Source: Diplocarpon mali (taxonomy: Eukaryota > Ascomycota > Leotiomycetes > Helotiales > Drepanopezizaceae). From it: 64,000 bases of DNA. Below the pieces are notes generated by a model. It did no database searches. It was not told the DNA's origin and was given only the letters and a program-made list of their open reading frames with translations. Made by a program: the position numbers and the translations under genes. Location: positions 3,679 through 67,678 of the forward strand of contig JAENRP010000130.1 of assembly GCA_024741835.1 (NCBI GenBank), written 5' to 3'. The first letter of the stretch is position 1; each line of letters starts with the position of its first letter. This document shows, in pieces, positions 18,532 to 52,821 of this stretch.

Positions 18532-18554
18532 ACTCTTAGTCTTAGATTGCAAGT
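18532..18554 (+). repeat. 23-bp palindromic unit in D1 gag (degenerate)
   Basis: ACTCTTAGTCT, T, AGATTGCAAGT, encoding TLSLRLQV. The orthologous D2 unit (42450) keeps the better form. Confidence 0.7.
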
Positions 18555-20303
18555 GGATTCTTAAAATACTCCCTTTCTATCGATTAAAGTTAAGGAAAAA
18601 CTGACATCTACCTTTACTATATTAGCCCCTCTCTTTTTAGCTGCTTAATAGGCCGAAATCGCAAACCTTATTAGCGCTACTATAGCCGCTGCTCTTTAAA
18701 ATAATGCTACCGCCCCTTCTTCCTTAAGTGCTAGCCCTTAGAACACTTGGTCCTTTACCGCCGACTTGCTACCTCCCTTAGACTACTACCTCTTAATCAT
18801 CCGACCTTTAGTCTTAGCTATTAACCCTTATCAAATCAAATACCCTTAAACCCATTTTAGCAACTACTAAAGCGAAATTACTTATAATACTTAAAAGATA
18901 GCTATAAAGGTATTTATTTAAAAGTACTTAAGCAACTTCACTTTAGAAGAGGACTAGATTACTGCCTACTTTAAGTGTATAATAGGTAAAGCTTAGAACT
19001 TAATCTTATAATATATAGATCCTATCTTTATTAATAAGTTTATATACGCTATTGATATCCTTAGGGTCTTAGATTAAAGGTTCTTTAATTATAACTATAT
19101 TTAGTCTACTAAGCTTAAATATAGCAAGCTAACTATAGGTTTAATATTATATAATAAGTTCTGATTTAAGTTTATTACCTTTGCAATAGCTAGTAAGATT
19201 GATTAATCTTACTAATTCGATAACATTTATAAAAAGGTCTCCTTAGCCTTAAAAAACGACCTTTAAGTAAAGAAGTATAAAATGAATAATAATTATACTA
19301 CTTTAAATAAGTTCTTAGCTATTATAGACCGTAAGGCTTATAATATCAAATAAGAAGAAGCTTATAACGCTTGATAAGTCGCTCCTGCTATTGCATTCTC
19401 CCCTTTAAAGGACCGCGTCCTTAGCATACTAAAAAGGAAGTTATAAAGACCTATAGCTATAGCTACTTCCCTAGCTCCTTGCACTTATTCCCTCTTACCA
19501 GCGGCCTATTAAGAAAGGTCTGCCAGCCTAAAGCCGTCGTTTAGTCTCTATTATAACTATAAAGCCCTTGGTCACTATATAACAGACTGCCTTAAGTTAA
19601 AGAAGTAGGGCGAGTTTATAATAGCTAAAGTTAAGATAGAAAATGACCTACTATTAGGAAACTATTAAGCTATAGCAAAGAATCCTACTATAGTATAAGT
19701 TATAATTTATAAAAAGACTTAGATTTTAATTCCCGCCTATTAATAGGCGGCCGCTAGTTCTTAGTTCTTATAGAACTAGCTTAAAATAGATCATTTATTA
19801 AAATAGTTACTTATATTAATAATAGAGCTAATATTTTCAGTATTATTAAGACGTCTTTAGTATACTAGCTCTCTTAAAGACTTAGGGTGAAGTTTATTAA
19901 ACTGCTTAAACCGATTACCCCTATTAGCTATAATAGCCTTAAAGGAGAAACTATTTAATTCGCTATCTTACTTACCCTTATAATCGATAGGCGATAAATA
20001 AACTTCCCTTTCTTAATTATAAGCTTAGAAGCTACTGACGTTTTAATTAGTAGGAAGTTCCTAAAGTACTATAACCTTAAATAATCCTATAGAAAGGGAA
20101 AAAATAGTATCTTTTAACTTAAAGATATGCCTATTGTCCTCTACTTTAATTAATGCGTACTAATCGATCTCTTATAGCTAATAAAATCCCTAATGGCCTA
20201 GTAAGATATCGATTGTCAAGTAGCTATAATAGATACTAAGGACAAAGACCTAAGAATGGCCTAAGCCTAGCTCTTAGTGCTAGCAAGTAAGAACTCGAAT
20301 CCT

Positions 20304-20371
20304 ACTCCTAATCCTAGTTTGCAAGTGAAAACTGCAAACTTAAATTCCACTCCTAGTCCTAGCCTATAAGT
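20304..20371 (+). repeat. Two 23-bp palindromic units, D1 PR-RT linker
   Basis: Units at 20304-20326 and 20349-20371, 45 bp apart, in frame with the protease (TPNPSLQV, then TPSPSL-stop-V, a RIP stop at Arg or Gln). D2 has three units at this place. Confidence 0.85.
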
Positions 20372-20881
20372 GGCCTCTTATAGACTTAAGGATAGCAGTT
20401 TCTTTAAAGACTTAAAAAGAGATCTAAACTATATAAAGAAGGCCTTATTAAAAGTATTAAACTTCCTACTCCCTCTCTTAGTAAAGAGAACCGCTCCTTT
20501 GAAGACAGCTTGCTAGATTAGCCTGATTTTAGCCTTAGCAATCGGCGCCCTTTACTACCGCTTTATAACTAGGGCAAAACGAGCTATATAAACTTAAGAA
20601 CTGGCGCCTAAAGAGTTTATATTTATAAGCTTTATTTACGATTTAGATTAAGAAATCAATCGCCGAGAATCGGTTAAGCAAGCTGAAATTAGCTCCCTTA
20701 GCCTTAGTTCGGCGCTATAAGCTAAGTATAAGAGCAACAACGAGCTAATAGACTAGAAGCTCCCGCCTTAGTACGCTAAGTTTAAGAATATCTTTAGTCG
20801 CTAGGCCTTTAATCAGCTGTTAGAACCTAGACTAAGGGTAGATTATAAAATCGAGCTAATAGGTAAGAACAACTTAATAAT

Positions 20882-20886
20882 CAAAC
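20882..20886. repeat. Target-site duplication CAAAC, left copy (element A1)
   Basis: Repeated at 28465-28469. The uninterrupted D2 copy reads CGAACCCCTTTG at the same place, confirming the insertion point. Confidence 0.92.
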
Positions 20887-21202
20887 TGTAACGATACAGA
20901 ACCGCCAAAGTGCGAGATCAAGTATAGGAGTAAGAAGTGGTGCAAAAGGCGTATTCTATAGGTCTAATACGAAGGAAACGAAGAAGTTAGAGAGCCCTCC
21001 CTATAGGAGAGCCCTTCTCCCTTATATATATTAGCAGCTTAAGGCTCTTTGCCTATTTATATAATATTATATAAGAATATCCTTTTGCACCTTTAGGGTC
21101 GATTCGAAATAACCTTATATCGAATCGAGATTGTAAAACCTTAAAACGCTATAAATACTATACTCCTGGGTAATTGCATTAGTTGGGGGTGCAGCTATTA
21201 TA
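20887..21202 (-). repeat. A1 3' LTR (316 bp)
   Basis: Same length as 28149-28464. Its outer end is intact (TGTAACG) and its inner end is RIP-altered (ATTATA for GTTACA). Confidence 0.92.
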
Positions 21203-21559
21203 CTACCTCTCCCCTTTAAGAACGCTTGCTTATAAGCGTTAGTAGGTTGTAACGATTTTTATATAGTGATATACTTAGCGCGTTATTATGCGAATAGTAC
21301 TATTCTGTATTTGGTTTAGCGTAAGTCGCATTATATACTTAAATTTGTTTTTCCCTTTATAGGATCTTCCTTTCTTAGTATAATAACTATATATAATTGC
21401 ATAAGTCCCCTACTTCTACTACTATAGTATAGGGCTAATGTATAGTAGTAGAAATAATTACTACTACTACTACTAACTACTATAAGTAAGTTTACCTTAG
21501 TCTAGGGTCGAATCGCGTCTAATATATATAATGCCGATCCCTTTGCTATTAGGCGCCCT

Positions 21560-22130
21560 TATAGTAGCCTATTGCGTTTATTATTACTAGTGCGTGCGGC
21601 GTCTTATATGCAATATTGCATACAAATGCGAGTTTGAATTGGAGTATAGTAAGAAGTGCTACTAGTACTAGGAGCAAAAGGCGAAGTGCATTCCTATAAG
21701 TATCCCGAATTGAGTCTAAAGTTTTAGTTGCGCTAATACTTATTTATAGCTTCCCTCTTATATTAGTAAGGAGTTCGCGGCGCTATTCGCGGCCCTTAAG
21801 GAGTGGTAGGAGGAGGCTCTTTAGTAGCAAGAGGGGGATAACGATAAAGACGATGATAACGCGCGTGCGGTTTTAGTAAGGAACTGCGAGATGCTCTATT
21901 AAGAGGCAGTCTGGCGCGCTTAGATCTTTATTAACCTCCTACTAATGGCTAGCGTAGAGGCTCTGATTAGCTGCTCTTAATTAGAGTATACTAGCCTTGC
22001 GGAGCTCCGCTCTATAGCTAAGGCTATAGTAAGCTAGCTAGAGGGGGTCTAAGCGACAGTTGCTATAAGTTCAACCTAAATTAGTATTGAATTAATCGCT
22101 GACTTTTTAATAAGAGCGCGGCGACCTTAT
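21560..22130 (+). pseudogene. A1 antisense accessory frame with Cys-rich motif
   Basis: On the strand opposite A1's gag-pol, between integrase and the 3' LTR, a frame of about 190 codons can be read through RIP-type stops. It starts with a Cys-rich segment (C-V-R-R-L-I-C, then K-C-E-F, then K-K-C-Y ending in A-K-C). The last part fits C-x2-C-x6-C if one Tyr was Cys. That is half of a fungal Zn2Cys6-like cluster, though the first half has odd spacing. A Glu/Asp/Asn-rich stretch and a helical stretch follow. A5 has the same frame at about 59290-59860. Confidence 0.4.
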
Positions 22131-22689
22131 TAAGTCTTAGCTAGCAAGGTTAGAGCAATTTAGCTAAACTATACTAGGCCTTCTAGGGTTTATTACCATA
22201 TTAGTAGAGCGGACTACTATAGCGGCAGAGTCTCTTATAAGGAGAGGGGGGCTCGCAGTAACAAGGGTGGCGTTAGGCGCGGCGGCTAGTAGGGCGGCGC
22301 TAGTAGTAGCAAGAGGAGGTTAGGGTCGTTTTAAGCAGGGGCGTAGATAAGAGGCGAGCTCTAGCTTTAGAATAGAGTTAGAGCTTATCTCTTTAAGCGC
22401 AAAGGAAAAGGGGTTGGAGGAGTTATAAGGGGAGGAGGCAGTGGGCCTAGTGTTATTGTTTTTATGTTTTTTATTATTTTTCTCCTTTTTTTTTTTTTTT
22501 TTATTTGTATTTTTAGATTTATTTACCAACCTATTTCGCATTTAGCCTATTATCTTCTAAGTGATTGTAATTATTTATACTACTTTCCTAAGCCTTTAGC
22601 TAAGCTTATAGGTTCTAAGGTGGTCCTAGCTTTATAGGATTGGCCTAATGAAAGTCGCGAATCTTATATAAGGATCTTATAAAATTTAA

Positions 22690-25600
22690 GGCGTAATACT
22701 AACTTGAATCGGGGTTATAACTAATCCATTTGACCTAGTACTTTAGTTTCCCTTAAGATAGGCGTATACTTAGTATCTTAAACACTTTATACTCTTCCTA
22801 CCCTACGATCTTTTCTATAGTAGGCTAGGGTTATTCCTAACCTAGCAAAGGGTTCTGCAGATCTTTAAATAGTAGCTTTAGCGTAAAGATATCGTATATT
22901 ATAGAACCTATAGGCAGCTTGATTTGATATAAATTGCTTACCTTCTTAAGAACTTCAAAAGGGCTATCTTATTAATTGGCCAGTTTCCAGCTAAGGTAGT
23001 AGTTCTTAAGATTTTTTATTAAAAGGTAGACTATATCTCTAGGTTTCTAATCAATCTCCCTTTAGTATTAATTTATAGACTTATGCATTTTCTCCTAAGC
23101 GCATTTTATATTACCTTTCGCTACTTCCTAGGCTAAGTGCATCCTCTCTACTACTAGCCTAGCCTTTGCTTAGTTTAATCTCTCCTATAGACTAGACGGT
23201 TTTAAAGAGATCTAGTCTTAACTTATCTAAGGTGCAACTCTATACTTAAGCTAATATAAGGTTATACTAATAAAAGCGTAAGAGAGGGTAGATTGCGCAT
23301 AATCTATTAATAGAATTAGCTTACTCTAATTATCTTAATAGTAATTAATAGAAGGCCTTAGCCTTAAATCAATATACTTATTCATAATCTCCGTTTGGCT
23401 ATTAGTCTCCTTATAGTATACTATAGAGAGTTTGATCTTAATACTAATAATATGGCAGAACTCTCTTTAAAATAAGGAGACGAATTAAGGGCCTTGGTCT
23501 AAGGTAATTATCTTTAGAGTATAGCCGAATCGATAAATCTATTAAATAAATAGTCGGGCAGTTCCTTAAGCGTCGATATCTTTTTAATAAGGAATTGTAA
23601 TAGCGCTCTTATTAAGTCGGTCTATAAAAACTAGGATTCGATTAAAGCTGTGCTTATTAAGAGGGAAATCCTTAAAATCTATATATAAGTGCTATATAAG
23701 ATAGTTAGGAATAGGGAAGGGCTATAGGAGACTTAATTGCTTAATTGTTTTCAAATGCGAGAATTAATAAGGTCTGTAGTTTGCAATGAATCTTTTATAG
23801 TCTAAACCTATCCTGACCTAATAATACTTAGGAGTAAGTAGCTGATAGGTCTTTAAGCTATTAGGGTGCGCGCTTGAAGGTTGGTTATAAGCTTCTTAGA
23901 TTAAACGAGTATATAAGGGAGTATTATAGCATATGCAAAGACGCTCTTTAAAGTAAAGCAATCTGTCTTTTAAGGAGTAGTTCTTAAGGAGGTTGGTGCG
24001 AATCTCTTAAAAGGATTTGCAGTTATTTTAATAAAGCTTCTCGATTAAATTAAAGGAATCCTTAGATCGATTTAAGGTTAAATTAGGAGTATTGGTTGAT
24101 ATTAAGGCTAGGGTGCCTTTAGTAGATTCGGCGAGAAATTTGTCAGCCAGTTTAGTATTGATTCGGGTGTCCAATTGGGTAGGAGAAAGCAAAACTCAAG
24201 ATCGGCTATCTAGCTTCGCTTATTTATAAACTAGCATATCTTACTCTTAGTAGCTAAGAATATCAGCCTTTTAGTTATCTTTACTAAGAGTATATACAAT
24301 TCGAAAATTAAAGTCAGATAAAAATTCTATCTATTAGTACTATTTCGCAATTAGAACCTTAGTAGTTATAAAGTACTTAAAGGAGCGGTGATCTGAGTAA
24401 ATATTAACTCACTCCTTAAGTGATATAAGCTCCAGTCTCTATTTATAATAGGATTTAATAATAGTAAAGAGTTCTTTATTATATATTTCCTAATTAGGTT
24501 TGTGACCTAAGAGTATATACAAATAGAAGCCGATAGGGTACTATTGCTTATTAGAGTATTGCTAAGAAAGTACTCTAGCGATAATACTATTAGAAGTATC
24601 AGTTTCCAGCTTTATAAGCAAGTTGGGGTTAAAATGGTAAATCTGCTGAATCGATAGCAACTGCTTATAAAGCTCTTTAAAAGCGATTCGGCACTCTTCT
24701 ATTTAATTCTAGGGTACTATCGGTCGGGTTAGAATAGAGAGGGGTTTGGCGATTAGTCTAAAGTTGCAAATGAATTATTAGTAGAACTTGTAAAATCCTA
24801 GGTAGGACTTTACTTTAGTAATAGTTTTTAAGTACTTCTAATTATATAGTAGTTCGACCTTTTTAAGGTCTAGTTCAATCCTGGTTATTATTAAAACGTA
24901 TTTAAGATATTAAGTTTAAGTAATATAAAACTCGCACTTCTTAATATCTGCTTAAAGGCTAGCTTTTAAGAGTTGTTTTAGCACCTTTTCAATATGACCC
25001 TAGTGCTTTTTAATATTCTTAGAGTAAATTAAAATATCGTTTAAGTACGCTATATAAAAATTATCTAAGTAATTTAAAAGAATGTTATTTATATACTGCT
25101 AGTAAGTATTAGGTCTATTATAGAGGCCGAATGGGAGAACCTTGCATTTGTAGGATCTGTACTTTATTCGAAAGGTGGTATATTCCTTTAATTCGGGGTC
25201 CATTTATATTCGATTGAAAGCGGCCCGAATATCTAGTTTTATGAAAATTTTAGCTTTAGATACTTACTTTAAAAGCTCGTCTATCCTCGGAATCAGGTAA
25301 GCGTCTTTCTAAGTTAGTGCGTTTAGCTTCTGGTAGTTTATATAAAATCAGAGGCTACTATCGGCCTTTTTTATAAATAGTACTAGCGAAGCAAAGGGGC
25401 TAGTACTTGTCTTAATAAAGCCTTTGTCTAAATTCTTGAGTAAGTACTCCTTTATAACCTTGAGCTCCTTAGTAGATTGATAGTAGAAGGGCGAATAGGC
25501 GTTAGGCAAGGGCCCTTTTAGCTATATCTTATAATTGTAGTACTAATAGGAAGGGAGGGTATCTATATCCCTTTTTAAGAAGGCTTATCTTAGCGATCGG

Positions 25601-28100
25601 TACTATTTTAGGAGTTGATCGTTAATTAGCTTTTCGATATTAGGATTCTTAGGCTTATATCTTTCCTTTAGAATCCTATCTATTTTGTAAATATTAGTTT
25701 AAAAGAACTCAGTCTCCTTGCGCTTTATATTATAATAAAAGGCATTAGCGCTGATTTTGCAAATAGGAACCGCAGCTTTAGGGCATTTGCGAATAGGGTT
25801 AGAATATAGTCGATTTATATTAGACTATTTTCTTAGATCCGGCTTAGTTATAGGCAGGGGCGCTGGCTTAATAATAGTAATAAGGATCTCGCGCCTAGTT
25901 AGGATTACTAAATTAATGCTAGACTATCTTCTATTAATCTATTAAGCTTTGTTTATAGCTATTTCCTATTCTTTGCGATTAACGTTAGCTTAATAATCGG
26001 ATCGGATCCGAAGTCTTTTAAAAGGAGGAAGACGAATAACGATTTTCTTTACGAATCAGGGAGATAGGGGGTAATATAAAAGCTATACGAATCGGTTTTC
26101 CTTCGGATTAAGTTTAAGTCGGAATTAGCGTATCTATTTAACTCTAATAATAGCGTCGCGCTAGCTAAGGTTAAGAATAACCTAAGGGTAGTTGTAAATA
26201 CGCCTTCTATTAATTATTAAGTAAAAGTGCATATAGTATATAGCTTATGCGCAAACGGTATTTTAAAATCTATAGATAGGAATAAGGGCTAAAAGAGGAA
26301 GAATTTTAAAGCTAGTTGCTCTCGAAAGATGTATAGAAAGAGAACAATTTAAAAATAGGTAACTAAAGGCTTTAGTATTTGCTAAAGCTAATAATAATAC
26401 TCTAAGTCCATTTATACTAATAGTATAAGAGGTTAGGAATTGCTTCCTTTTTATTAAAGAGTTAAGATCTAGCTTTAATAAGTTGTACTTTCGCAAGCTT
26501 AAGTAGGAGTCTTTTCCTAGGCCTTTTCATTTTCCTAATCTTCTTCTATTTTAACCCTATTCTTAGTTGAGTTTAGAGTTGGATTAGCTTCCTTTGCATT
26601 TTTTAAGGCATTGATCTTGCTTGCAGAAGGACACTCGGTCTTATAGTGACCAGTTTTGCTATAGGTCTAGTAGGTGGCTTGCTTAAAGGGTAAAGTAGGA
26701 GAATTAGCCTTAGCTGGCGTATCTTAGCAAAAAGGGGTAGTCGGCTTTAAGGCTGGTGTCTTAGAAACTCAGGTGGTACTTTTAGCGCTCAGATTGCGAG
26801 CGGTCTTATTAAGGAGCGAACTAGATGTCTTCTAGTATAATACTAGGGTCGCTTTGCTTTTAGTTAAGGGATTAAGGAGTTAATTACTTTAACGTTCGGC
26901 ATTAAGGGCGTTTAATTAGTTGATTATAATAGTATAGTCCTTCCCTTAAGAGGCCTTAGCTAAGGCGTAGGTAGCTTTAAGCTAAGGGGTAATCTTATTC
27001 TATATAAAGAAGAACTACTTAGATCTTAAGACCTCTCCTTAGATTATAGTAGATTAGAATTAGGCTTGAAACTAAGGGAAAGTTTCTTTAAAATAACCGG
27101 CTTCCCTTATATAGAGGTAGTGGAAAGTAGATTAGAATAGGTCTACCTCTTAGCTAATTAAAAAGTAATTGCTTAATAGTTCTACTATTTCCTAATAGTT
27201 TTAAAAGGGGTTAGTCTTTAAGAGGTACTAGGGTTTAAGGTACGTTTAGGCTTATCTTATGGTAGATCCTTAAATAAGGGCTTAGCGAGCTTGCTTATTT
27301 AAGTATAAGTCTATATTAACTTACAATTGATCTTAGACTAAAGCTAACTACTGCTTATACATTAGGGAGGTCTTATTATTAAAGGGGGTAATCTTTTCGG
27401 TTAGCTGAATTTTCGTCTATTTTATATCTGTATCGACTTTTAGAGGAGGCTAAGTCTCGCTTCGTTAAGGGTAGGTGGATTCTCGCTTAGTAGTTTAATA
27501 TATACGCTAAGCTGTTTTTTAGCTTTAATAAGCTAGGGTCTTTAGGCTAAAGATAGTTTAGGCAATCTTACTAATCTCGCTTTGCAATTGTCGATTAGAT
27601 TGATCTTAGCGTTGTAAGAATTCCTTTAAACCTAAGACTGTTCCTTATAAGACGTTTAGGTTTAAAAAGTCTTAATCATCTCAATTAGCTCAGCTGTAGC
27701 GTTATGGTCTTTTGCCCTTAGCAGTAGAGAAAGGTCCGCCCTTAAGGGCTAGGGTAGGGGTACTCCTTATAGAAGCTAGTTCCTTAAACGAACCGGGTAT
27801 ATTTTATATTTGCTGACTTCTAGCTGGTAGGAAATTCATTTTACCGATTTTGGTTTCGGTAGTAATTTGGTTAAAAAAGGGGTTCTATAGAAAAAGGGTT
27901 CTAGTAGCGTAGTACTCTTTTAACTTCTACCTATAGTACTTTTACGAAAGGAGTGGTTGAGAAAATCCGGCTAATAAAAGCGTTCCTCGATTATACTAGT
28001 TAATAAGCTATACTTAAGCTCTTAGTTTATTTAAGAGATCTTTAGGATCCTGACTCTATCGAAAGTCGAAACAACTGCGAATCGATTTTCAAAAGGGGTA
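22690..28100 (-). pseudogene. A1 gag-pol (RIP-inactivated)
   Basis: Minus strand, right to left: gag from about 28.1 kb; zinc knuckle near 26640-26690, with Cys-to-Tyr changes before G-H-Y-K-T-E-C; protease near 26380, where the D-T-G active site reads N-T-K; RT about 24.8-25.46 kb with KLDIRAAFNRI and an N-D-I-L-I-Y version of the Y-x-D-D box; RNase H about 24.2-24.8 kb; integrase to about 22.7 kb. Asp-to-Asn, Gly-to-Lys, Cys-to-Tyr and Gln/Trp-to-stop are all G:C to A:T changes. Not functional. Confidence 0.82.
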
Positions 28101-28133
28101 GGATATTATTAAAAGCTGTCCTTAGCAGAGAAG

Positions 28134-28146
28134 AACTTCTTCGTTT
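28134..28146 (-). promoter_or_regulatory. A1 self-priming primer-binding site
   Basis: On the minus strand AAACGAAGAAGTT begins two bases inside the 5' LTR boundary. Its 13-nt reverse complement lies inside the LTR (28238-28250 on the plus strand reads AAACGAAGAAGTT). The same pair is intact in A4. This matches the Tf1 mechanism, in which the 5' end of the transcript folds back to prime reverse transcription. Confidence 0.7.
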
Positions 28147-28148
28147 AA

Positions 28149-28464
28149 TATAATAATATAAAACCGCTAAAGTGCAAGATCAAGTATAGGAGTAAGAAGT
28201 AGTATAAAAGGCGTATTCTATAGGTCTAATACAAAGGAAACGAAGAAGTTAGAGAGCCCTCCCTATAGGAGAGCCCTTCTCTCTTATATATATTAGCAGC
28301 TTAAGGCTCTTTGCCCGTTTATATAATATTATATAAGAATATCCTTTTGCACCTTTAGGGTCGATTCGAAATAACCTTGCATCGAATCGAGATTGCAAAA
28401 CCTTAAAACGCTATAAATGCTATACTCCTAGGTAATTGCATCAGTTGGGGGTGCAGCCGTTACA
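28149..28464 (-). repeat. A1 5' LTR (316 bp)
   Basis: Pairs with 20887-21202. Its outer end is CGTTACA, followed by the CAAAC duplication. Confidence 0.92.
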
Positions 28465-28469
28465 CAAAC

Positions 28470-31400
28470 CCCTTTACTGCCTTATTAATAAATAGCTCTT
28501 AGAGGTTAAGAGCTATATTCTTAAGAACCTATATAAAGGATTTATTAAAGCTTTAAGTTCCCCTTAGGCAGCCCTAATCCTCTTTATTAGAAAAGCTAAT
28601 AGCTCTTTACATTTATATATTAATTACTAGAAACTGAACGCCTTAATAAAGAAAGACCCCTACCTAATTCCACTTATCGATAAGATAATAGTATATATAT
28701 CGAAAGCTTGTATTTTTATAAAAATCGATATATAATAAGCCTTCTACTATATTTGCATATTAGCTGATGCAAAGGACCTAACTACCTTTCGCATGTGTTA
28801 TAGGACCTATAAATATAAGGTTTTGCCATTCGGGCTGATAAATGGGCCTGCTACCTTTTAGAGGTTTATTAATAATATTCTCCTTAACCACCTTAACGAT
28901 TTCTGCTCTACCTACTTAAATAATATTCTAATCTATTTAAAAAACTCCCTTGACTATGAGATTTATATTAAGAAGATCTTAGGAATTCTCTAACGCTATA
29001 GCCTATAAGTAGATATTAAGAAAAGCGAGTTCGGGGTTATTAAGACTAGGTTCCTAGGGTTTATTATTAGAGTTTATAGAATTGAGGTAGACCTTAATAA
29101 GGTTTTAGTCATTTAAGAGTAGAAATACACTAAGAATATATATAGTATATAAAGCTTCCTAGGGTTTTGTAATTTTTACCGAAGGTTTATTCAAGGCTAT
29201 AGCTATATCTGCCGACCTTTAATAGCTCTTATAGGAAACGTTCCTTTTAATTTTAATAACGCTTATAAGGAAGCTTAAGAAGCTCTACGCTTAAGCCTTT
29301 AAACGATCCCGATCTTATGCTACTATTACCTTTAGAAGTAGATAAGGCTTAAGACCGATGCCTCCGACAAAGTAGTTGCCGGCGTACTCTCCTAGCTTTA
29401 GGAAGACGATAACTACCACCTAATCAGGTACTTCTTGAAGACTATAAATGACGCCGAGCTAAATTACCCTATTTATAATAAGGAGCTCTTAGCGATTTTT
29501 AGATCGTTCTATTAGTATAAGGCAAAGCTACTCAAGGCCTAGAAAACAGTATATATATATATAGATCATAAAGCCCTTAAGTACTTTATAATAACTAAGG
29601 ACTTAATAGTCTGGTAAGCTTACTAGGCGGAGTTCTTTGCTAATTTCAACTTCCTTATTATATACTAAATAGGTATAACAAATACGCTAGCTAATATACT
29701 CTTATATCAAGACTAGGAGCTGACCCCTCTTAAGGCTAGGAAATGAGCTTTATGCTACTAGCAGCTCTTACCTAATAATAAGCTCTCTATAGAAGTACTT
29801 GCTACTAAAGGCAATTCTACTCCTGAGCCCGGCCTATAGGTAACTTTAGCGCAGATCAATTCTACTCCTAAGCCTGGCTTACGAGTAACGATTATGCTAA
29901 TCGCACTAATAGAGGCACCTGCTGACCTAATATCTAAGGTCGAGTATAATATAGCAAACTACTACATTATTAATAAAGTCATTTAAGCTAATAAGACCTC
30001 CTTTAAGCTATAGAAGTTCTAAGATAAGGCGCAGAGCTATAGCCTCGATTATAAACTTAGCTAAGGCAAACTCTTCTTCTAAGGTAGACTTGTTATACTA
30101 TCTTAACCTCTTGAACTGCAGATAGCCCTAATTTGTTATATATATAAGTAACCTTGCGTTATATACGCTGGAATTGGGAAAATAAGACTTCTAGTAGGAA
30201 GAAAATACTATTAGAAAAGCCTTGGCAGCGATATTAGTACTTATATCTAGAACTATTATTATTTGAAAATGAAAGCTTATTATAATAAGACCCCCGGTTT
30301 CCTATAACCCTTGCCAATTCCCGAATGAGCTTATTAACACTTAATAATGGATTTTATAGAGCTTCTGCTTAACGAACTTGGCTACGACTTTGCACTAGTA
30401 ATAATAGACCGATTGTTAAAGAAGGTAGTATCGATCCTATACTATAAGATAGTTAACGCAAAAGGCCTTATAAAGTTGTTTTTAATTCACTAGATATACT
30501 ATTTTAATATGCCTAACTCAATTCTGTTAAATAGAGGCGCCTAATTCGTCTCTACCTTTTAGAAAGAACTCTATCGGATACTAGGTATAAAGGTTAAGCT
30601 AATTATAGCTTATAATCCTAACGTTGATAGCCAAACTGAGATTATAAACTAGTACTTAAAATAATGCCTTAGACTGTTCTACTTATACTATTAAAACAAT
30701 TGGAGTTATCTCTTACCTTTAATAGATATTGCCTAATTGACCTTACCTTACGAATCGCTAGGGCAAATTTCCCCTTTCTAAGTGCTAAACGGCTATAAAG
30801 CTCGCTCCTCTTAGAATTTAATTAACCTAGAGCCTCTATAGATAGCAATTGAGAGAGTAAATCGTAAAACGGCGCTCCGTATAGCTATTAAAGCTTAAAA
30901 AGTAGTCCAATTCGCTTAATCATCTCTCTAAGTATAATAGGCTAAAATGAAACGGCTTATAGACCTCTACCGCCGGCCAGTTGATTAGACTATAGGAGAT
31001 GATGTACTAATTAGTATTAAAAACTGGAAGCTTGATCGGCTGAGCCGGAAGCTCTCTAATAAGTAGTATAGCCTAGTAAAAGTACTAGAAAAGCTAGGAG
31101 AAAGCTGGAAGCTATAATTGCCTGATTCGCTTTATTCGATCTACCCTATTTTCCACTTGCACTTATTATATAAATACGTTCCTAACCCTTTGCCAGGATA
31201 AGTTCAAGAACCTCCTACCTTAATTAAAGTACTACTAGAATAGGAGGAGTAGGAGATAGAAGTAATAATAGGATCTTATATTCGAGCTTAGAAGCTCGAA
31301 TATTAGATTAAGTAGAAAGGAGCTGATAAAGACCTTAAATAGTACCTATGCTCTAATGCTATAATGACGCTATATGCTATTCGAGATTTCCATTTAAAAA

Positions 31401-31543
31401 ACGTTTAAGCTAAGGGGCTACTAAGGGCGCTATTAAGCTAGCTTAGGTTATATAATAATAGAGTTGATGATTATAAGGACCTAGAGGATAATACGCCTAT
31501 GGATATAACTGCGCGGGCGCAGTTTTTCAAAGGGGGGAGGTAG
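28470..31543 (+). pseudogene. D1 pol: RT, RNase H, integrase, chromodomain-like C-terminus
   Basis: Continues the D1 frame after A1. RT is at about 28.57-29.2 kb; the Y-L-D-D box reads Y-L-N-N-I-L-I-Y near 28915. RNase H is at about 29.33-29.7 kb (KTDASD, NKELLAIF). A linker with two palindromic 23-bp units (29819, 29864) follows. Integrase is at about 30.1-30.95 kb (MDFIELLLNELGYDFALV, AYNPNVDSQTEI). A chromodomain-like segment lies at about 31.29-31.4 kb (IKWKGADKDL, AIRDFHLKN). The frame ends ARAQFFKGGR plus TAG at 31541-31543, directly against the LTR, so the purine tract codes for the last residues. Confidence 0.85.
29819..29886 (+). repeat. Two 23-bp palindromic units, D1 RNase H-integrase linker
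   Basis: Units at 29819-29841 and 29864-29886, 45 bp apart, in frame (TPEPGL, TPKPGLRV). Confidence 0.85.
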
Positions 31544-31803
31544 TATTACGGCCGTATTATATGCATATTACGTAAACGGTTATATCACGTATCGAAGTCA
31601 GGTGCACGCTAACGCTAAGGTAGCAAGGTAGCTAGATTATGTGCACGCTAGCAAAGCACCTGTACTTATTCTGGAGGAGCTTTATTAAAGACTCTCTCTT
31701 CTTCTTCATCTTTTCTTCTCAATTATATAGCGTACCTCTTGAGGTAATACAGTTAGCGTCATTCGATTCTCGCCTTCTGTACGCTCGAGAGCAAGTCGTG
31801 ACA
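31544..31803 (+). repeat. D1 3' LTR (260 bp)
   Basis: Preceded by the purine tract AAAGGGGGGAGGTAG and followed by CTATA. More RIP-mutated at its start than the 5' copy, but the end GTGACA is intact. Confidence 0.9.
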
Positions 31804-33614: not shown

Positions 33615-33623
33615 AAAAAAAAT

Positions 33624-41166: not shown

Positions 41167-41431
41167 TATTACGGCCGCATCACGTGCACCGCATCACGTG
41201 CACGGTTGTGCACGGGTATATCACGTGTCGAAGTCAGGTGCACGCTAAGGTAGCAAGGTGGCTAGATCATATGCACGCTAGTAAAGCACCTGTACTTATT
41301 CTAGAGGAGCTCTACTAAAGACTCTCTCTTCTTCTTTATCTTTTCTTCTTTATTATATAGTATACCTCTTAAGGTAATATAGTTAGCGTTCGATTCTTAA
41401 CCTACTATACGCTTTAGAGCAAGTCGTAATA
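41167..41431 (+). repeat. D2 5' LTR (265 bp)
   Basis: CACGTG at 41181, 41195 and 41222, with GTGCAC boxes between. The candidate self-priming site AAGAAAAGAT follows at 41433-41442. Confidence 0.9.
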
Positions 41432-42449
41432 TAAGAAAAGATCAATTCAACTTCTGCTAAGAAGCTTAATATCTACCTCCTTTAGAATCATTATTTCGAA
41501 CTGCTTTAAGCAACTCGATCTCTTAACCTTAACTCTCTTATTACAAACTGCCTTAAGCAACTTATATATAGTACCTAGATCTTACTAATCTAGTTTTTAA
41601 AGAAAGCTAAATAATAACCCTTAAATACAAGATTAGCTCGTTTTTTCGACCCTTTACCCACTCTACTTTGCAAACGGAAATTCACCTTTAATTTCAATTC
41701 GAAAAGAAAAAAATTATTCCTTATACCCTCGCTTTGCTAGTATAGGCTGCTGCCTAAAGTAGTATAATAACTTTTCTCTTCTTAACTCTCTCTCTCCCTT
41801 ATAAACACTCTATACTATATCGACCTATACTTATTAATAACTCTCTTACTCTTTAAAGCTCCTTACCTTTTTAAAGCTCCTTACTCCTTCCTTTAAAACA
41901 CTTAGGTACGAAACTAGAGGATCTATACCTATATATATATAAAGACTTAGTTAGCCTTAGTAGGTTATACTATACCATTTAAGACTAGGTCAACCTTAGT
42001 AGAGTGATAAGCTTTAAACCCTACTTCCTCGGATTTGCATTATACCCCTTCTTATATAACTTTATTATAACTCCTAATTAGTAAAGAGATATAATCCTAA
42101 AGTAAAACCTTCTCTTTTAAGATTTATAAACTTATAATACCTTAATATATACTCTATTAAAAGGCTTTAAGAATATATATAGCTTTACTTATATTAATCT
42201 TCCCCCTTTTAAATAGGTTACTATTTAGCATTAGGTCCCTTTAAACTAAATTAAATAATATAAAGAGAGTTAGTACTTATAACCTCTAATCTTATACTAC
42301 TTAAGAGAAGTGAAAGGTTAACTGTACCTCTATTACTAGGCCTTACTACTACCAATTCTAGTTCTATAGGCCTTATTGCCAACCCTAGTCCTAGAGATAT
42401 TCCCCCTCTTAAGCCTACTTAGGAAGTTACCTCCTCTAATACCGATTCT

Positions 42450-42472
42450 ACTCCTAGGCCTAGCTTATAAGT
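42450..42472 (+). repeat. 23-bp palindromic unit in D2 gag
   Basis: ACTCCTAGGCC, T, AGCTTATAAGT; the counterpart of the unit at 18532 in D1. Confidence 0.8.
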
Positions 42473-44239
42473 AGACTTTTAAAATACTCCTTTTCTATCG
42501 ATTGAAGTTAAGGAAGAAGATATACTCTCTCTAACGACATCTACTCTTACTATATCGGCCCCTCTTTTCTTAGCTACTTAATAGGCCGAAATCGCGAACC
42601 TCGTTAGTACTGCTATAGCCGCCGCTCTTTAAAATAATACTACTGCTCCTTCTTTCCTAAATGCTAGCCCTTAGAACACTCGATCCTTTACTACCGACTT
42701 ACTACCTCCCTTAGACTACTACCTTTTAATTATCCGACCTTTAATCTTAGCTATTGACTCCTATCGAATTAAGTACCTTTAAACCCATTTTAGCAACCAC
42801 TAGGGCGAAATCACTTATAACGCTTAGAAGATGGCTATAAAGGTATTTATTTAAAAGTACTTAGGCAACTTCACTTTAAGAGAGGACTAGATCACTACCT
42901 ACTTTAAGTATATAATAGGTAAAGCTTAAAACCTAATCTTATAATATATAGATCCTATCTTTGCTAATAAGTTTATATATGCTACTAATATCCTTAGGGT
43001 CTTAGATTAAAGGTTCTTTAACTATAACTATATTTAGTCTATTAAGCTTAAATACAATAGGCTAATTATAGGTTTATTATTATATAATAAGTTCTAATTT
43101 AAGTTTATTACCCTTACTATAGTTAATAAGATCGATCAGTCTCGCTAGTTCGATAATGTTTGTAAAAAGGTCTCCTTAGCCTTAAAGAACGACCTTCGAA
43201 TAGAGAAGTATAAAATAAATAATAATTATACTACTTTAGATAAGTTCTTAGCTATTGCAGACCGCAAGGCCTGTAATATTAAGTAAGAAGAAGCTTATAA
43301 CGCTTGATAAGTTGCCCCTACTATCGCATTCTCCCTTTTAAAGGACCGCGTTCTTAGTATACTAAAAAGGGAGTTATAAAGACCTATAGCTATAGCTACT
43401 TCCTTAGCTCCCTGCACTTGTTCCCCCTTGCCAGCGGCCTATTAAGAAAGGTCTGCTAGCCTAAAGCTATCGTCTAGTCTTTGCTATAATTATAGAGCCT
43501 TTAGTTACTATACAATAGACTGCTTAAAGCTAAAGAAGCAAGGCAAGTTTATAGTAGCTAAAGTTGAGATAGAAAACGACCTACTATTAAGAAACTGCTA
43601 AGCTATAGTAAAGACTCCTAATATAGTATAGATTATAATTTATAAAAAGACTTGGATTTTAATTCCTACCTATTAATAGGCAGCCGCTAGTTCTTAGTTC
43701 TTATAAAACTAGCTTAAAATAGATCATTTATTAAAACAGTTACTTATATTAATAGTAGAGCTAATATTTTTAGTATTATTAAGACGTCTTTAGTATACTA
43801 GCTCTCTTAAAGACTTAAGGTAAAGTTTATTAAACTGCTTAAACCGATTATCCCTATTGGCTATAATAGCCTTAAGGGAGAAACCATTCGATTTGCTATC
43901 TTACTTACCCTTATAATCAATAGGCAATAAATAAACTTCCCTTTCCTAATTATAAGCTTAAAAGCAACCGAAATTTTGATTAGTAGGAAGTTCTTAAAGT
44001 ATTATAACTTTAAATAATCCTATAGAAAGGGGAAAAATAGTATCTTTTAGCTTAAGGATATGCCTATTATTTCCTACTTTAATTAATATATATTAATCGA
44101 TCTCTTATAGCTAATAAAACCATTAATAGCTTAGTAAAACGTCGATTGTCAAATAGCTATAATAGACGCTAAGGACGAAGACCTAAGAATGGCCTAAGCC
44201 TAGCTCTTGGTGCTAGCAAGTAATAATGCCTCAAATTCT

Positions 44240-44352
44240 ACTCCTAGTCCTAGCCTACGAGTAAAAACCGCGAACTCGAATCTCACTCTTAGTCCTGGCC
44301 TATAAGTAAAAACTGCAAACTCGAATTCCACTCCTAAGCCCGGCTTACAAAT
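44240..44352 (+). repeat. Three 23-bp palindromic units, D2 PR-RT linker
   Basis: Units at 44240-44262, 44285-44307 and 44330-44352, exactly 45 bp apart, with spacers coding K-T-A-N-S-like residues. One more than in D1, an in-frame 45-bp difference. Confidence 0.88.
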
Positions 44353-46214
44353 AGCCTCTTATAAACCTAAGGATAGCAGTTTCTTTAAAGACTTGAAAAG
44401 AGATCTGAACTATATAAAGAAGGCCTTGCTAAGAATACTAGACTTTTTGCTCCCTCTTTTAATAAAGAGAAATGCTCCTTTAAAGACAGCTTATTAGATT
44501 AGCTTAATCTTAGCCTTAATAATCGGCGCCCTCTACTACCGCTTTATAACTAGGGTAAGATAAGCTATATAAACTTAAGAACTAGCACTTAAAGAGTTTA
44601 TATTTATAAGCTCTATTTATAATCTAAATTAAGAAATCAATTGCTAAGAATCGGTTAGGTAAGTTGAAATTAGCTCCCTTGGCCTTAGTTCGGCGCTATA
44701 AGCTAAGTATAAGAGTAATAATGAGTTAATAGATTAAAAGCTCCTGCCTTAGTACGCCGAATTTAAAAACGTTTTTAATCGCTAGGCCTTTGATCAATTG
44801 CCGGAACTTAAGCTAAGGGTAGATTATAAAATCGAGCTAATAGGCGAGAATAACTTAATAATCGAACCCCTTTGCCGCCTTACTAACGAATAGCTTTTAA
44901 AGGTTAAGAGCTATATTCTTAAGAACCTATACAAAGGATTTATTAAAGCTTTAAGTTTCCCTTAGGCAGCTCTAATCCTCTTTATTAGAAAAGCTAATAG
45001 CTCCTTACGTTTATATATCGATTATTAGAAACTAAACGCTTTAATAAAGAAAGACCCCTACCCGATTCTACTTATTAATAAGATAATAGCATATATATCG
45101 AAAGCTCGTATTTTTATAAAAATCGATATATAATAAGCCTTCTACTATATTTGCATATTAGCTAACACTAAGGACCTAACTACCTTTCGCATATGCTATA
45201 GGACCTATAAGTATAAGGTTTTGCTATTTAGGTTAATAAATAGGCCTACTACCTTTTAAAGGTTTATTAATAATATTCTCCTTAAGCACCTTAACGATTT
45301 CTACTCTACCTACTTAAATAATATTCTAATCTATTTAGAAAACTCCTTTAATTATAAGATTTATATTAAGAAGATCTTAGGAATTCTCTAATGCTATAGC
45401 CTTTAAGTAGATATTAAGAAAAGCGAGTTTAGGGTTATTAAGACTAGGTTCCTAGGGTTTATTATTAGAGTTTATAGAATTAAGGTAGACCTTAATAAGG
45501 TCTTAGTCATTTAGGAGTAGAAATACGCTAAGAACGTACATAGCATATAGAGCTTCTTAAGGTTTTATAACTTCTACTAAAGGTTTATTCAAAGCTATAG
45601 TCGTATCTACCGACCTTTAATAGCTCTTATAAGAAACGTTCCTTTTAATTTTAATAACACTTATAAGGAAGCTTAAGAAGCTTTATAATTAAGCCTTTAA
45701 ACGACTTCGATTTTATACTACTATTACCCTTAGAAGCAGATAAGGCTTAAGACCGATGCCTCTAATAATATAGTCGCTAGTATACTCTCCTAACTTTAAG
45801 AAGATAATAACTACTACCTAATCGGGTACTTTTTAAAGACGATGAATAACGCTAAGCTGAATTACCCTATTTATAATAAGGAGCTCCTAGCGATTTTTAA
45901 ATCGTTCTACTAATATAAGGCAGAGCTACTTAGGGCCTAGAAAATAGTATATATATATAGATCATAAAGCCCTTAAGTACTTTATAACAACTAAGGACTT
46001 AATAGCCTAATAGGCTCGCTAGGCAGAGTTCTTTGCTAACTTCAACTTCCTTATTATATATCGAATAAGTATAATAAATACGCTAGCTAATATACTCTTA
46101 TATTAAGACTAGGAGCTAACCCCTCTTAAGGCTAGGAAACGAGCTTTACGCCACTAGCAGCTCTTACCTAACGACAAGCTCTTTATAGAAGTACTTGCTA
46201 TTAGAGGCGATTCC

Positions 46215-46282
46215 ACTCCTAGGCCCAGCCTATAAGTGACTTTAGCGTAGATCAATTCCACTCCTAGGCCTAGCCTACAAGT
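46215..46282 (+). repeat. Two 23-bp palindromic units, D2 RNase H-integrase linker
   Basis: Units at 46215-46237 and 46260-46282, 45 bp apart; same number and place as in D1. Confidence 0.85.
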
Positions 46283-47939
46283 AACAATTATACCTATTGT
46301 ACTAATAGAGGTACCTACCGACCTAATATCTAGGGTCGAGTATAATATAGCAAACTACTATATTATCGACAAGGTCATTTAAGCTAATAAGACCTCCCCT
46401 AAGCTATAGAAGTTCTAAAACGAGGCGTAAAGACATAGCCTCGATTATAAACTCAGCTAAGGCAAACTCTTCTTTTAATATAGACTCGTTATACTATCCT
46501 AACCTCCCGAACTGCGAATAGCCTTAATTCGTCATATATATAAGCAACCCTATATTATATATATAGGAATTGGAAAGACCAGACTTCTAGTAGGAAGAAA
46601 ATACTATTAGAAAAGCCTTAGTAGCGACATTAGTACTTATATTTAAAACTATTATTATTTAAGAATAAAAGCTTATTATAATAAAACCTTAGGTTTCTTA
46701 TAACCCTTGCCAATTCCCAAATAAGCATATTAACACTTGATTATAGATTTTATAAAGCTCTTATTTAACGAACTCAGCTATAACTTTGCACTAGTAATAA
46801 TAGACCAATTGTTAAAGAAGGCAGTATCGATCTTATGCTATAAGACAGTTAATATAAAAGGCCTTGCAGAGTTGTTTTTAATTCACTAGATATGCTATTT
46901 CAGCATACCTGACTTAATTCTATTAGATAGAGGCGCCTAATTCGTCTCTATCTTTTAAAAAGAACTCTATCAGATACTAGGTATAAAGGTTAAGCTAACT
47001 ATAGCCTATAACCCTAATATCGACAGCCAAACTAAGATTATAAACTAATACTTAAAATAACGCCTTAGACTATTCTACTTATACTATTAAAATAATTAGA
47101 GTCGTCTCTTGCCTTTAATAGATATTGCCCAATTAACCTTACCTTATAAATCCCTAAGGCAAATTTCCCCTTTCTAAGTACTAAATAGCTATAAAGCTCG
47201 CTCCTCTTAGAATTTAATTAACCTAGAGCCTTTATAGATAGCAACTAAGAGAGTAAATTGTAAAACGGCGCTCTATATAACTACTAGAGCTTAAAAAGTA
47301 GTTCAATTCGCTTAATTATCTCTTTAAGTATAATAAGGTAAAATAAAATAGCTTGCAGATCTCTATTGCTAGCTAGTTAATTGGACTATAGGAGATAATA
47401 TACTAATTAGTACTAAAAATTGGAAACTGGACCGGCTGAGCCGAAAGCTCTCCGATAAGTAGTACAGCTTAGTAAAAGTACTAGAAAAGCTAAGAGAAAG
47501 CTAGAAGCTACAATTGCCTGATTCGCTCTATTCGATCTACCCTATATTCCATTCCTACTTACTGCGAAAATACATTCCCAACCCTCTGCTAGGCCAAGCT
47601 TAAGAACCTCCTACTTTAATTAAAGTATTGCTAAAACAAAAGGAGTAGGAGATATAAGAAATAATTAGATCTTATATTCAAGCTAGAAAGCTTAAATATT
47701 AGATTAAGTGGAAAGGGGCTAATAAAGACCTCGAATAGTACTTATGCTCTAATGCTATAACGGCGCCGCATGCTATTCGAGATTTCCATCTAAAGAACCC
47801 TTAAGCTAAGGGGCTACTAAGGGCGCTATTAAGCTGGCTTAGGTCATATAACAATAGGGTTAACGATTATAAGGACCTAGAGGATAATACACCTATAGAT
47901 ACAACTGCGCAGGCGCAGTTTTTCAAAGGGGAGAGGTAG

Positions 47940-48434
47940 TATTACGGCCGCATTATATGCACTACATTATATGCATAGTTATATATAGGTATATCACGTA
48001 TCGAAGTCAGGTGTACGCTAAGGTAGCGAGGTAGCTGGATTACGTATACGCTAGTAAAGCACCTGTACTTATTCTAGAGGAGCTCTACTAGAGACTCTCT
48101 CTTCTTCTTCATCTTTTCTTCTCCATTATATAGCGTACCTCTTAAGGTAATACAGTCAGCGTTCGATTCTCGACCCACTGTACGCTCCAGAGCAAGTCAC
48201 GTGCACGGTTGTGCACGGGTATATCACGTGTCGAAGTCAGGTGCACGCTAAGGTAGCGAGGTGGCTGGATCACGTGCACGCTAGTAAAGCACCTGTACTT
48301 ATTCTGGAGGAGCTCTACTAGAGACTCTCTCTTCTTCTTCATCTTTTCTTCTCTATTACATAGCGTACCTCTTGAGGTAATACAGTCAGCGTTCGATTCT
48401 CGACCCACTGTACGCTCCAGAGCAAGTCGTAACA
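47940..48434 (+). repeat. D2 3' LTR with 230-bp internal tandem duplication
   Basis: The first LTR copy runs to AGCAAGTC near 48197 and then jumps back to the CACGTGCACGG segment and repeats to the true end GTAACA at 48434. Length is 265 plus 230 bp. The second copy keeps CACGTG, GTGCAC and most CpA steps, while the start of the first is heavily mutated. The AGTAC duplication after it shows that both copies belong to one element. Confidence 0.85.
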
Positions 48435-48439
48435 AGTAC

Positions 48440-50112: not shown

Positions 50113-50809
50113 TTAAATGAAGAAGTTCTTTTCTACTAAGGACGGCTTTTAATAATATCCTACCCCTTTTAAAAATCGATTTGCAGTTATATCGACTTTC
50201 GATAGAGTCAGGATCCTAAAGATCTCTTAAACAACTAAGAGCTTAAGTATAGCTTATTAACTAGTATAATCGAGGAACGCTTTTATTAGCCGGATTTTCT
50301 TAACCACTCCTTTTATAGAAGTACTATAGGCAGAAGTTAAAAGAGCATTATACTACTAGAACCCTTTTTCTATAGAACCCCTTTTTAACCAAATCACTAC
50401 CGAAACTAAGTTTGGTAAAATAAATTCCCTACTAGCTAGAAGTTAGTAAATACGGAATATATCTGGTTCGTTTAAGGAAGCAGCTTCCATAGGGAGTACC
50501 CCTACCCTAGCCCCTAAGGCCGGACCTTCCTCTGCCGCCAAGGGCAAAGGGCGATAATACTATAACTAAGCCAATTGAAATAACTGAGATTTTTCGAACC
50601 CAAACGTCTTATAAGGAATAGTCTTAGGTCTAAAGGAATCTTTATAATACTAAAATCAATCTAATCGATAATTGTAAAGCGAGATTAGTAGGATTGCTTA
50701 AGCTATCTTTAGCCTAAAGACTTTAGCTTATTAAAGCCAAAAGACGGCTTAGCGCGTATATTAGACTATTAAGTAGGAATCCACCTACCCTTAGCGAAGC
50801 AAGACCTAG

Positions 50810-51058
50810 TATAAGAGGAAGTAGGAACAACACCTAAGAATAGGCCTAAGGGAAGACCAAAGACAAAGAAGGAGGAAGCACTATAAGCGGGCTTTTTAAA
50901 GATAAGAACTAGGACAATTTACTAATTAAAGGTAGAATAGGTAATTAGCATTGCGCGCTATCTTTAAGTATAATAGTAGTCCTATATATACCCCTTTCTT
51001 AATCCTTATCTAATTATATGACCTATATTATAAGATCCTTTACTTCTAAGTCTTTATA
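50810..51058 (-). repeat. B2 3' LTR (249 bp)
   Basis: Pairs with 53536-53784 and with the split B1 LTR. Confidence 0.88.
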
Positions 51059-51223
51059 TATGCCTTAACTAACTTAAGTAGCGGCCTCTGCTATTATTAG
51101 TAAAGAATATAAGACTCTTGCAAGTCGAGAATACCAACTCCTATTTGTAAAAACAATAAGTATAAGTAAGGTTAGTACCTAAAGTCGTAAAGGTAAGGAG
51201 AAGAGAAAGGGTTTTTTTTTTTT

Positions 51224-51266
51224 NNNNNNNNNNNNNNNNNNNNNNNNNNNNNNNNNNNNNNNNNNN
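51224..51266. other. Assembly gap (43 N)
   Basis: Unknown bases directly after a T run and directly before a palindromic unit at 51270. Such a site is prone to assembly or polymerase failure. Any frame drawn across it is meaningless. Confidence 0.99.
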
Positions 51267-51269
51267 TTA

Positions 51270-52821
51270 ACTCGCGGGTTAGGCCTATAAGTGGATTTTA
51301 AAGAAATATATAAAGGGAGAGAGGGAAGGGGAGAGGTGCGGTAGTAAATGAATAAAAATGATAAAAACTCCTTTTCCTCCTTTAGTAATACGACTCCTAG
51401 GCTAGGCCTGCAAGTTAAAAGCTCAAAGTTATTAAAGCTATCAAATCGCAATTTTAAAGAAAATTCGAAGACAATTTTAAGTAATCCTAAGCATATATGC
51501 CTTAACTAACTTAAGAGGCGTCCTTATTAAAGAAAATCAGGCTTTATATAAAATTAAACTAATAATTTAGGAATTTCTTTAATATAGCTATATATAATTA
51601 TTAAGCCTTTCTAAGGTAATAACTCGCTTATTTAACCTAAAGGAAGCTAGATTTAAGTATTTAAAGTTCGTATATTGGTTTTTACCCTCTAAAGCCTATC
51701 GATTATTAAACTAAGAGGCGCGATAAGTTTCCTAAAGAAGGCCTTTAATTAAGGTTTCTAAACATTAGATATAGAGTTTAGAAAACTAGGCTTCGAGTTC
51801 TTTGATTTTTAAAGCAGATTTCACTCTTAAGCTAGAACTGCAAGTAAAGGGAATTACTACTGGATTTCTCTATGCCTCTTTAGTAACCTCTAGAGCCTTC
51901 GAATATTCTTATACTAAGCTTTTAAGATCTTTAGTAAAGGAGGAGGTAAGCTCTTTCTCCTTTTCTATTACCTCGATAGTCCTTTTGCTAAAGTCTGATT
52001 TTAAGGCGAAGATTAAGAAGTCTTCGAATTAAGCGTATATTATAAGATTACGCTTATTAATTCTAAAATGCTTAATAATCCTATTTCAAAGGCTAATAGG
52101 TAATTCAAATAAGAAAAGGCGTCCTCTTTCAACTTTATTAAGAATCTTCTAATTAATTAAGGTATTCGACACTTAAGTAAAGGTCCGATAGTAGTTTTTA
52201 AGTTCCTTAAGAGTATAAGTAATAAGAATAAACTCCTTTAGAAAGGCTAGAGTATTGCGAATCTACTATCTATTAAATTCTCGAAATTCAGATTTAAGAG
52301 CCTTAATAAGGAGTTCTTAAGATTTATAAAGCTTTTACTTAAGTAGAGATTTAATAATATCTTTATTAGTTTGGTCGCAGTAGTAAGGAAGTCGATTAAT
52401 TATCTTATTATATTTAATATTAAAATTATAATAAGTCTCTTTATATTATTTAAGGAAATTAATAATATTAACTCTAGTAAAATAAGAAGTACTAAAGGAA
52501 TTAAAGAAGGGAAAATGATTAATAATAGCTTTAAAGGCGGCTATTATCGCTTTATTCGTTTTAATAAGAGAGAAGCTAGGTCGAATATAAGGCTTAAGGT
52601 ATTCTAAAGAGTTTTCAAAATCTGAGTTAATCTTAAAGTAATTAAGATAGGCTTAAAAAGATTTAAGCAAAAGGTTAAAAGGAGGTTTAAAATTGATATT
52701 TTTAATATTTTCAAGTATTAATATTGAAAAAGCAGGTATAGTTATCAAAGGGGAAGGTAAAGAGCTTAAGTTATGTAAAATTGCATTTTTATATTCCTAC
52801 TCGCAGGCCTAGCCTAAGAGT
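51270..52821. repeat. Four dispersed 23-bp palindromic units in B2
   Basis: Units at 51270-51292 (ACTCGCGGGTT...CTATAAGT), 51393-51415 (ACTCCTAGGCT...CTGCAAGT), 51823-51845 (degenerate, inside an open frame at 51802-52032) and 52799-52821 (ACTCGCAGGCC...CTAAGAGT). Both orientations occur. Unlike those in D and E they are not in tandem. Confidence 0.8.

Follow-up and report, generated by a model that had tools for sequence, protein, structure and literature searches.

A rigid, asymmetric 23-bp dyad repeat recurs in unrelated retrotransposons of Diplocarpon mali

We analysed a window of 64,000 nucleotides from Diplocarpon mali (assembly GCA_024741835.1, contig JAENRP010000130.1, positions 3,679 to 67,678 of the forward strand). 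Two copies of retrotransposon D, one copy of retrotransposon E and the element B2, all flanked by long terminal repeats (LTRs), contain a short dyad repeat of 23 bp. An earlier note on this DNA had listed 21 copies of the repeat, and each of the 21 is present as an exact 23-mer where it had been placed (Table 1). A symmetric weight matrix applied at a score of at least 13 retrieved the same 21 copies from the window and no others; the matrix was trained on one-mismatch pattern matches of a larger sample that included the window, so this agreement is partly circular. A degenerate pattern derived from the listed copies gave, with up to two mismatches, 33 strand matches in the window against 0.38 expected.

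The larger sample comprised 327 kb, consisting of the window and fetched loci with overlaps merged (loci L001, L002, L023 and L024 lie inside larger ones); the loci were picked around matches or along contig C1 and are not a random draw. It contained 161 words scoring at least 13, compared with none in one Markov-1 random copy. All 161 fell in 217 kb, and the 11 gene-rich loci that make up the other 110 kb (of a 49-Mb genome) gave no matrix match; the single two-mismatch pattern match in one of them, L036, scored below the matrix cut-off. Genome-wide counts, which cover 49.4 Mb in 676 contigs, gave 1,527 and 1,579 strand matches for a looser pattern (reversed control, 0) and 653 places for a near-perfect palindrome pattern (control, 1). 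Screening positions 16000-54000 of the window against Rfam at the gathering score resulted in no match. A viral contig scan with a pattern of 14 fixed bases returned 85 stretches, each with one place, which we took as chance although the expectation was not computed. The dyad repeat is real, abundant and unusual, and its geometry is firm.

Within the sample, the motif is found at 23 named positions, some of them subdivided among 59 flank classes, across six groups of sequence (D, E, H, J, K and B). The carriers are at least four retrotransposon families, the Ty3-like D and K and the copia-like E and H, together with the LTR-flanked B2 and the unclassified J. Pfam analysis detected in D and K an RNase H domain of the type found with Ty3-type reverse transcriptases (RTs), and in H the copia-type domain RVT_2; nothing convincing was obtained for the J pieces. 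Two protein relatives of E carry PF25597 and PF07727, which we take to be associated with copia, and E is called copia-like on this basis. In H, the copies form an array that follows a Pol_BBD-like stretch of the polyprotein (below the Pfam cut-off), and their number varies between genomic copies: there are nine in L049 (L049:4901-5322), and arrays are also present at L031:43-512 and L050:5312-5694. K and J probably form one large element of more than 10 kb, because sites of the beta-beta class described below recur 4,083-4,088 bp apart in contigs C1, C7, C12, C19 and C24, a distance obtained by coordinate subtraction with the intervening sequence not read. An example is C1:397862-408019. Two J pieces look related to one another by eye. 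The occurrence in D, E, H and K upholds the view that one dispersed repeat is present at linkers of unrelated retrotransposons.

Table 1. Carrier elements of the window and the 21 copies of the repeat.
Feature	Position	Strand	Remarks
Element D copy 1	16885..31799	+	LTRs 16885-17138, 31546-31799; split by nested element at ~20887-28465
Element E	33193..38769	-	LTRs 33193-33425, 38537-38769; copia-like by protein relatives
Element D copy 2	41194..48432	+	LTRs 41194-41429, 48197-48432; RNase H domain between
Element B2	50810..53784	.	LTRs 50810-51058, 53536-53784
D copy 1, 5' region site	18532..18554	+	same site as 42450
D copy 1, gag site	20304..20326	+	
D copy 1, gag site	20349..20371	+	
D copy 1, RNase H-integrase linker	29819..29841	+	frame 0, TPEPGL*V
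D copy 1, RNase H-integrase linker	29864..29886	+	TPKPGLRV
E, 167 bp inside LTR 33193-33425	33592..33614	-	probably non-coding
E, integrase-RT linker	35499..35521	.	both arms alpha type
E, integrase-RT linker	35547..35569	-	
E, integrase-RT linker	35592..35614	-	frame 0, TPSPGPRV
E gag	37002..37024	+	reverse orientation relative to gene
E gag	37056..37078	+	minus-strand reading TREPGLGV, frame 0
D copy 2, 5' region site	42450..42472	+	frame 0, clear on the left and tied on the right
D copy 2, gag site	44240..44262	+	TPSPSLRV
D copy 2, gag site	44285..44307	+	
D copy 2, gag site	44330..44352	+	
D copy 2, RNase H-integrase linker	46215..46237	+	
D copy 2, RNase H-integrase linker	46260..46282	+	
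B2, 212 bp inside left LTR	51270..51292	.	mixed arm class
B2, inside left LTR	51393..51415	+	
B2	51823..51845	+	
B2	52799..52821	-	

The repeat had been described as a palindrome with two 11-nt arms around one centre base and ACTC/GAGT ends. The 23-bp layout stands, and the arms are imperfect: in the window copies 4 to 10 of the 11 arm pairs are Watson-Crick and no copy has perfect arms, while the 3' end is GAGT in nine of the 21, AAGT in ten, and AGGT and AAAT in one each. Two unlike half-sites at a rigid distance make the element an asymmetric dyad: alpha (ACTC-CTAGG-CC) and, on the other strand, beta (ACTC-GCGGK-CC), separated by one free centre base. Weaker symmetric flanks, RATTYN and NRAWTY, extend about 6 bp past each end, which gives about 35 conserved bp. 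Exact converging half-site pairs 14-60 bp long span 23 bp in every case (105/105), and when one mismatch per arm was allowed 155 of 171 pairs did so, with six of the remainder at 18 bp; unpaired half-sites are near control level (30, and 20 in the reversed control). The bases at positions 5 and 19 are mostly of the same class (two pyrimidines in 78 copies, two purines in 55, purine-pyrimidine in 14 and pyrimidine-purine in 2), and so most copies combine one alpha and one beta half and have a direction. Genome-wide, exact class patterns matched 5,730 alpha-beta, 793 beta-beta and 52 alpha-alpha copies (6,575 in total, decayed copies being missed by exact matching), with no match to the reversed patterns, and we rejected the perfect palindrome as the type form on these counts.

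We compared the arm pairs of 149 copies scoring at least 20 with 200 shuffles of their columns. Pairs 5-19 and 9-15 are Watson-Crick in 9 and 71 of the copies, below the shuffled means of 39.5 and 81.6; pairs 4-20 and 6-18 are also below their means, 7-17 is slightly above, and the others, apart from 8-16, which is considered later, lie within about 2 of theirs. Selection on the hairpin had been proposed from a paired change (GTCC/GGAC) in the copy at 35592. This change belongs to a minority, since 76 of the 149 copies have a G-A or T-C mismatch there and two more are unpaired. For the flanks we used 36 classes, after dropping from the 59 those that were unoriented (10), contained N (2) or came from arrays (11). 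Conservation is symmetric, with a peak at -2 and +2, weaker conservation out to 6 and free bases at -1 and +1; position -2 is a pyrimidine and +2 a purine in all 36 classes, which are not independent, as one position may give several. No covariation was detected between the flanks in these classes. The 148 35-mers tested for RNA folding gave a mean z of -0.75, a weak value overall. Pair-keeping selection on a hairpin is unsupported, given pairs 5-19 and 9-15 and the lack of flank covariation, and on balance the geometry appears to agree more with protein recognition than with RNA folding.

Stop counts on both strands proved misleading, since antisense frames can be open, and were replaced by counts on one strand per element, set by the domains for D, E, H and K and assumed for J and B. 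At fifteen sites the same frame is the most open on either side, and 14 of these are in phase 0 in at least one copy: three in D, E gag, E integrase-RT, the H array, K1, K2, K5, J1, J2, J3, J4 and J6. Three of these assignments are narrow. For D 5' the right side is narrow, with a tie in the window copy; for D RNase H-integrase the right side is tied or worse in two of three copies, yet one frame is open through the linker; and for J6 the left side is narrow, with 6 against 7 stops. The fifteenth site, K3, is in phase 1 on both sides in both copies and reads LASLACEL. The remaining eight, namely E 3', H 3' a to c, K4, J5, B a and B b, are either non-coding or without a clear reading. Among them, the E 3' copy (33592) lies in a stretch without a clear frame and is probably non-coding; such copies retain the motif. 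Placement in frame, as claimed in the earlier note, holds for most coding sites, and the peptide T-x-x-P-G-x-x-V is the usual reading and not a universal one. Next to the E 3' copy, at 33615-33697, is a tandem repeat of 27-28 bp that resembles the E integrase-RT flank, with fewer units in L137.

The repeat is alpha-first relative to the genes in D, H and E integrase-RT and beta-first in E gag and K1, so that it does occur in both orientations, as had been noted. Distances below 130 bp between neighbouring window copies are 45, 48, 54 and 123 bp and hence divisible by three, in agreement with the earlier observation. The same is true of 81 of 87 such distances in the sample, and all six exceptions belong to the H 3' trio, whose core also varies. 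Units that encode the eight-residue peptide are mostly spaced by 39, 45, 48 or 54 bp.

To look into the history of the sites, we searched the genome with their joined flanks; each search yielded about 170-180 candidates, of which the top 40 were scored. Of the 37 junction-spanning matches for D 5', 36 exceed the joined flanks by 23 to 27 bp, and the other one, in C108 (sequence not read), falls 2 bp short of them and reaches 10 bp across the junction. For D RNase H-integrase all 14 spanning matches are 23 bp longer, and for E 3' the excess is at least 21 bp in 38 of 40, a further match, in C100, being 16 bp longer (sequence not read). The E gag search gave no spanning match. One candidate empty site for E 3', in C159, is 5 bp shorter than the joined flanks; when read it was occupied, and fewer A-rich repeats explain the difference. 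An empty site between the distant Ty3 relatives A and D was also considered and given up, as the linker is too divergent for alignment by eye. Because the spanning matches carry the extra motif length, the motif was probably in place before each tested family amplified.

Within families, the differences consist of whole motif-plus-spacer units in the part of the comparison output that was inspected. Between groups, flank-pair scores of at least 10 occur twice, compared with 13 times in a null taken 14 bp further out, and scores of at least 8 occur 30 times in both; the mean flank score is 1.71 beside the motif and 0.99 in the null, as would be expected from the conserved near flanks. What families share is limited to the motif and its near flanks. 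Orthologous copies differ mainly by transitions, in motif and flank alike. Transversions per site amount to 0.0014 in the motif and 0.0049 in the flanks (123 non-independent pairs), the motif figure being biased downwards by the score of at least 20 needed for entry. In one ortholog pair of K (C1:435317 and C4:9481) the left half-site has been swapped as a block, beta for alpha, with 0 transversions in 80 bp of flank. Outside the genome, protein P0122 of Rhynchosporium graminicola has a homologous E linker that lacks the peptide (QNRGDI-ESTD, against QLRGDL-TPGPGPRV-NSQ); the gap after RGDL/RGDI was placed by eye, and automatic alignment places it elsewhere.

To account for the observed distribution, rigid geometry, two orientations, phase bias, and gain and loss of units, we tentatively put first a small inserted repeat, recognised by a protein and present before each tested family multiplied. 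Before these families expanded, a putative protein able to recognise or move the dyad would have inserted it into several retrotransposons, at many points unrelated to one another. Of the insertions into coding sequence, those that survived would mostly have been at linkers and in the phase giving a proline/glycine-rich peptide; afterwards the copies would have been inherited with each element, while motif-plus-spacer units were gained and lost and transitions accumulated. Several observations weigh against this explanation. According to the earlier note, precise empty sites would support mobility; within families none was confirmed among the 91 junction-spanning matches for D and E sites. Target-site duplications, by which a miniature inverted-repeat transposable element is recognised, are not in excess at 1 to 9 bp in the 36 flank classes. 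No candidate enzyme for moving the repeat emerged in this analysis, and confinement to retrotransposon sequence, judged against 110 kb of gene-rich DNA, would be unusual in an element that moves freely. P0122 is the single outside relative with a usable alignment, at an identity of 37% or 47% depending on the comparison. The E 3' and E integrase-RT copies have about 15 bp of flank in common by eye, which indicates that at least one copy spread with its flank inside an element. Finally, pair 8-16 is matched in 95 of 149 copies (shuffled mean 80.1, top shuffle 97) and leans to pairing, and 40 of the 148 35-mers fold with z below -2.

The insertion could hold together with another explanation, ranked after it and possible in our judgement, namely that the repeat is a cis-acting protein-binding site kept because it is useful to the retrotransposons, for example as a place where a factor of the host or the element docks to act on transcription or silencing, much as with VANC target motifs, with spread being secondary. 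Such a site would fit the rigid spacing, the variation of the half-sites, which shows no covariation at most pairs, the symmetric flanks, the free bases at -1, at +1 and in the centre, the presence of the motif in every readable family copy and in probably non-coding 3' stretches, and the rarity of transversions, although the latter may stem from recent shared ancestry or the score cut-off. Many copies, however, lie within coding linkers and in both orientations, which is awkward for regulatory sites, and the site is putative, with no factor known to bind it. We consider it unlikely that the repeat arose by template switching, in which the enzyme pauses at a symmetric word during reverse transcription and jumps, so that the word multiplies within and between retrotransposons. 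All classifiable carriers are retrotransposons, unit gain and loss is common in the inspected comparisons, and the shared E flank, the replaced K half-site and the minority of strongly folding copies would suit it; the weak overall folding, the lack of long flank sharing between families and the rigid ends, not expected from template jumps, speak against it. Selection for a flexible TxxPGxxV linker of the polyprotein, with the DNA symmetry as a by-product of codons, agrees with the phase bias, with the tandem peptide arrays of H and with the centre, the sole position at which all four bases are common, being also a third codon position. Yet the same DNA word is present in 3' stretches without a clear open frame and in phase 1 at K3, which weakens an origin from the peptide only, and the third codon positions 3 and 21 are nearly invariant (133/133 and 128/133); we regard this explanation as improbable.

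Apart from the repeat, the window contains tandem LTR-like units of 230 and 300 bp (47988-48428 and 58310-58888), arranged as if by inter-LTR recombination, and an intact gene for an MlrC-like metallopeptidase (9391-10947), whose top named matches, at 84%, are from Cadophora sp. and Drepanopeziza brunnea, presumably both of the Helotiales. A+T-rich stretches with transition-heavy decay look like the product of repeat-induced point mutation. A gag piece with two motif copies has a single match, at 82% across 51% of the query, to a protein of Diplocarpon coronariae that ends before the motif.

Rickettsia palindromic elements (RPEs) are dispersed palindromic repeats that lie in frame in unrelated coding sequences, encode a conserved peptide and often occupy the same site in orthologs (PMC3767692, PMC10969869). 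The likeness is the in-frame coding placement with a conserved peptide; RPEs, however, are about 100-150 bp long and belong to bacterial genes, whereas this repeat is 23-35 bp, nuclear and so far found in retrotransposon or LTR-flanked sequence. The parallel drawn earlier is fair as an analogy: by that analogy the repeat works like an RPE and is not a member of the class. PARCEL elements, which occur in bacteria and in some microbial eukaryotes, are tandem coding repeats with dyad symmetry in their DNA and are linked to mobile elements in some taxa (PMC2996958). Dyad symmetry in coding tandem repeats is shared with the nine-unit H array of L049, but the PARCEL peptide is amphipathic and 25 residues long, while ours has eight residues, is proline/glycine-rich and recurs mostly every 13 to 18 residues. 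Neurospora palindromes and ultra-short invasive elements are reportedly short palindromes of fungal mitochondria. In Fusarium, very short mitochondrial A/T palindromes of intergenic regions have been proposed to be mobile (PMC7218506). These are likewise very short and proposed to be mobile in fungi; the present repeat is nuclear and mostly in coding linkers. VANDAL transposons carry VANC target motifs, often in tandem, on which a sequence-specific protein acts, and VANC21 is localised in non-coding regions (PMC5735166), unlike our repeat with its mostly coding linkers and its putative binding protein. Each of these systems matches part of the features and none matches all. Judged by titles and the starts of abstracts, our searches of open-licence literature showed neither a nuclear fungal equivalent nor a paper on a palindromic coding repeat in retrotransposon polyproteins, and the string 'palindrom' is absent from the main text, as accessible, of genome papers on Diplocarpon coronariae (Marssonina coronaria).

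The most far-reaching view would make the repeat a parasite of parasites, a mini-element of the nuclear genome, about 35 bp long, that a putative sequence-specific protein moved and that colonised both LTR superfamilies in frame and rode their amplification. It would be a eukaryotic counterpart of the RPEs; we consider this possible, though less likely than not. In-frame palindromic coding repeats were known before from bacteria (RPE) and some eukaryotic microbes (PARCEL). An inserted repeat would be an example of a tiny DNA unit that spreads among unrelated polyproteins and leaves them intact. As a binding site, it would offer a common handle on many retrotransposons in a lineage associated with plants. 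With either explanation, the rigid geometry of two half-sites would make a clean bait for the putative protein.

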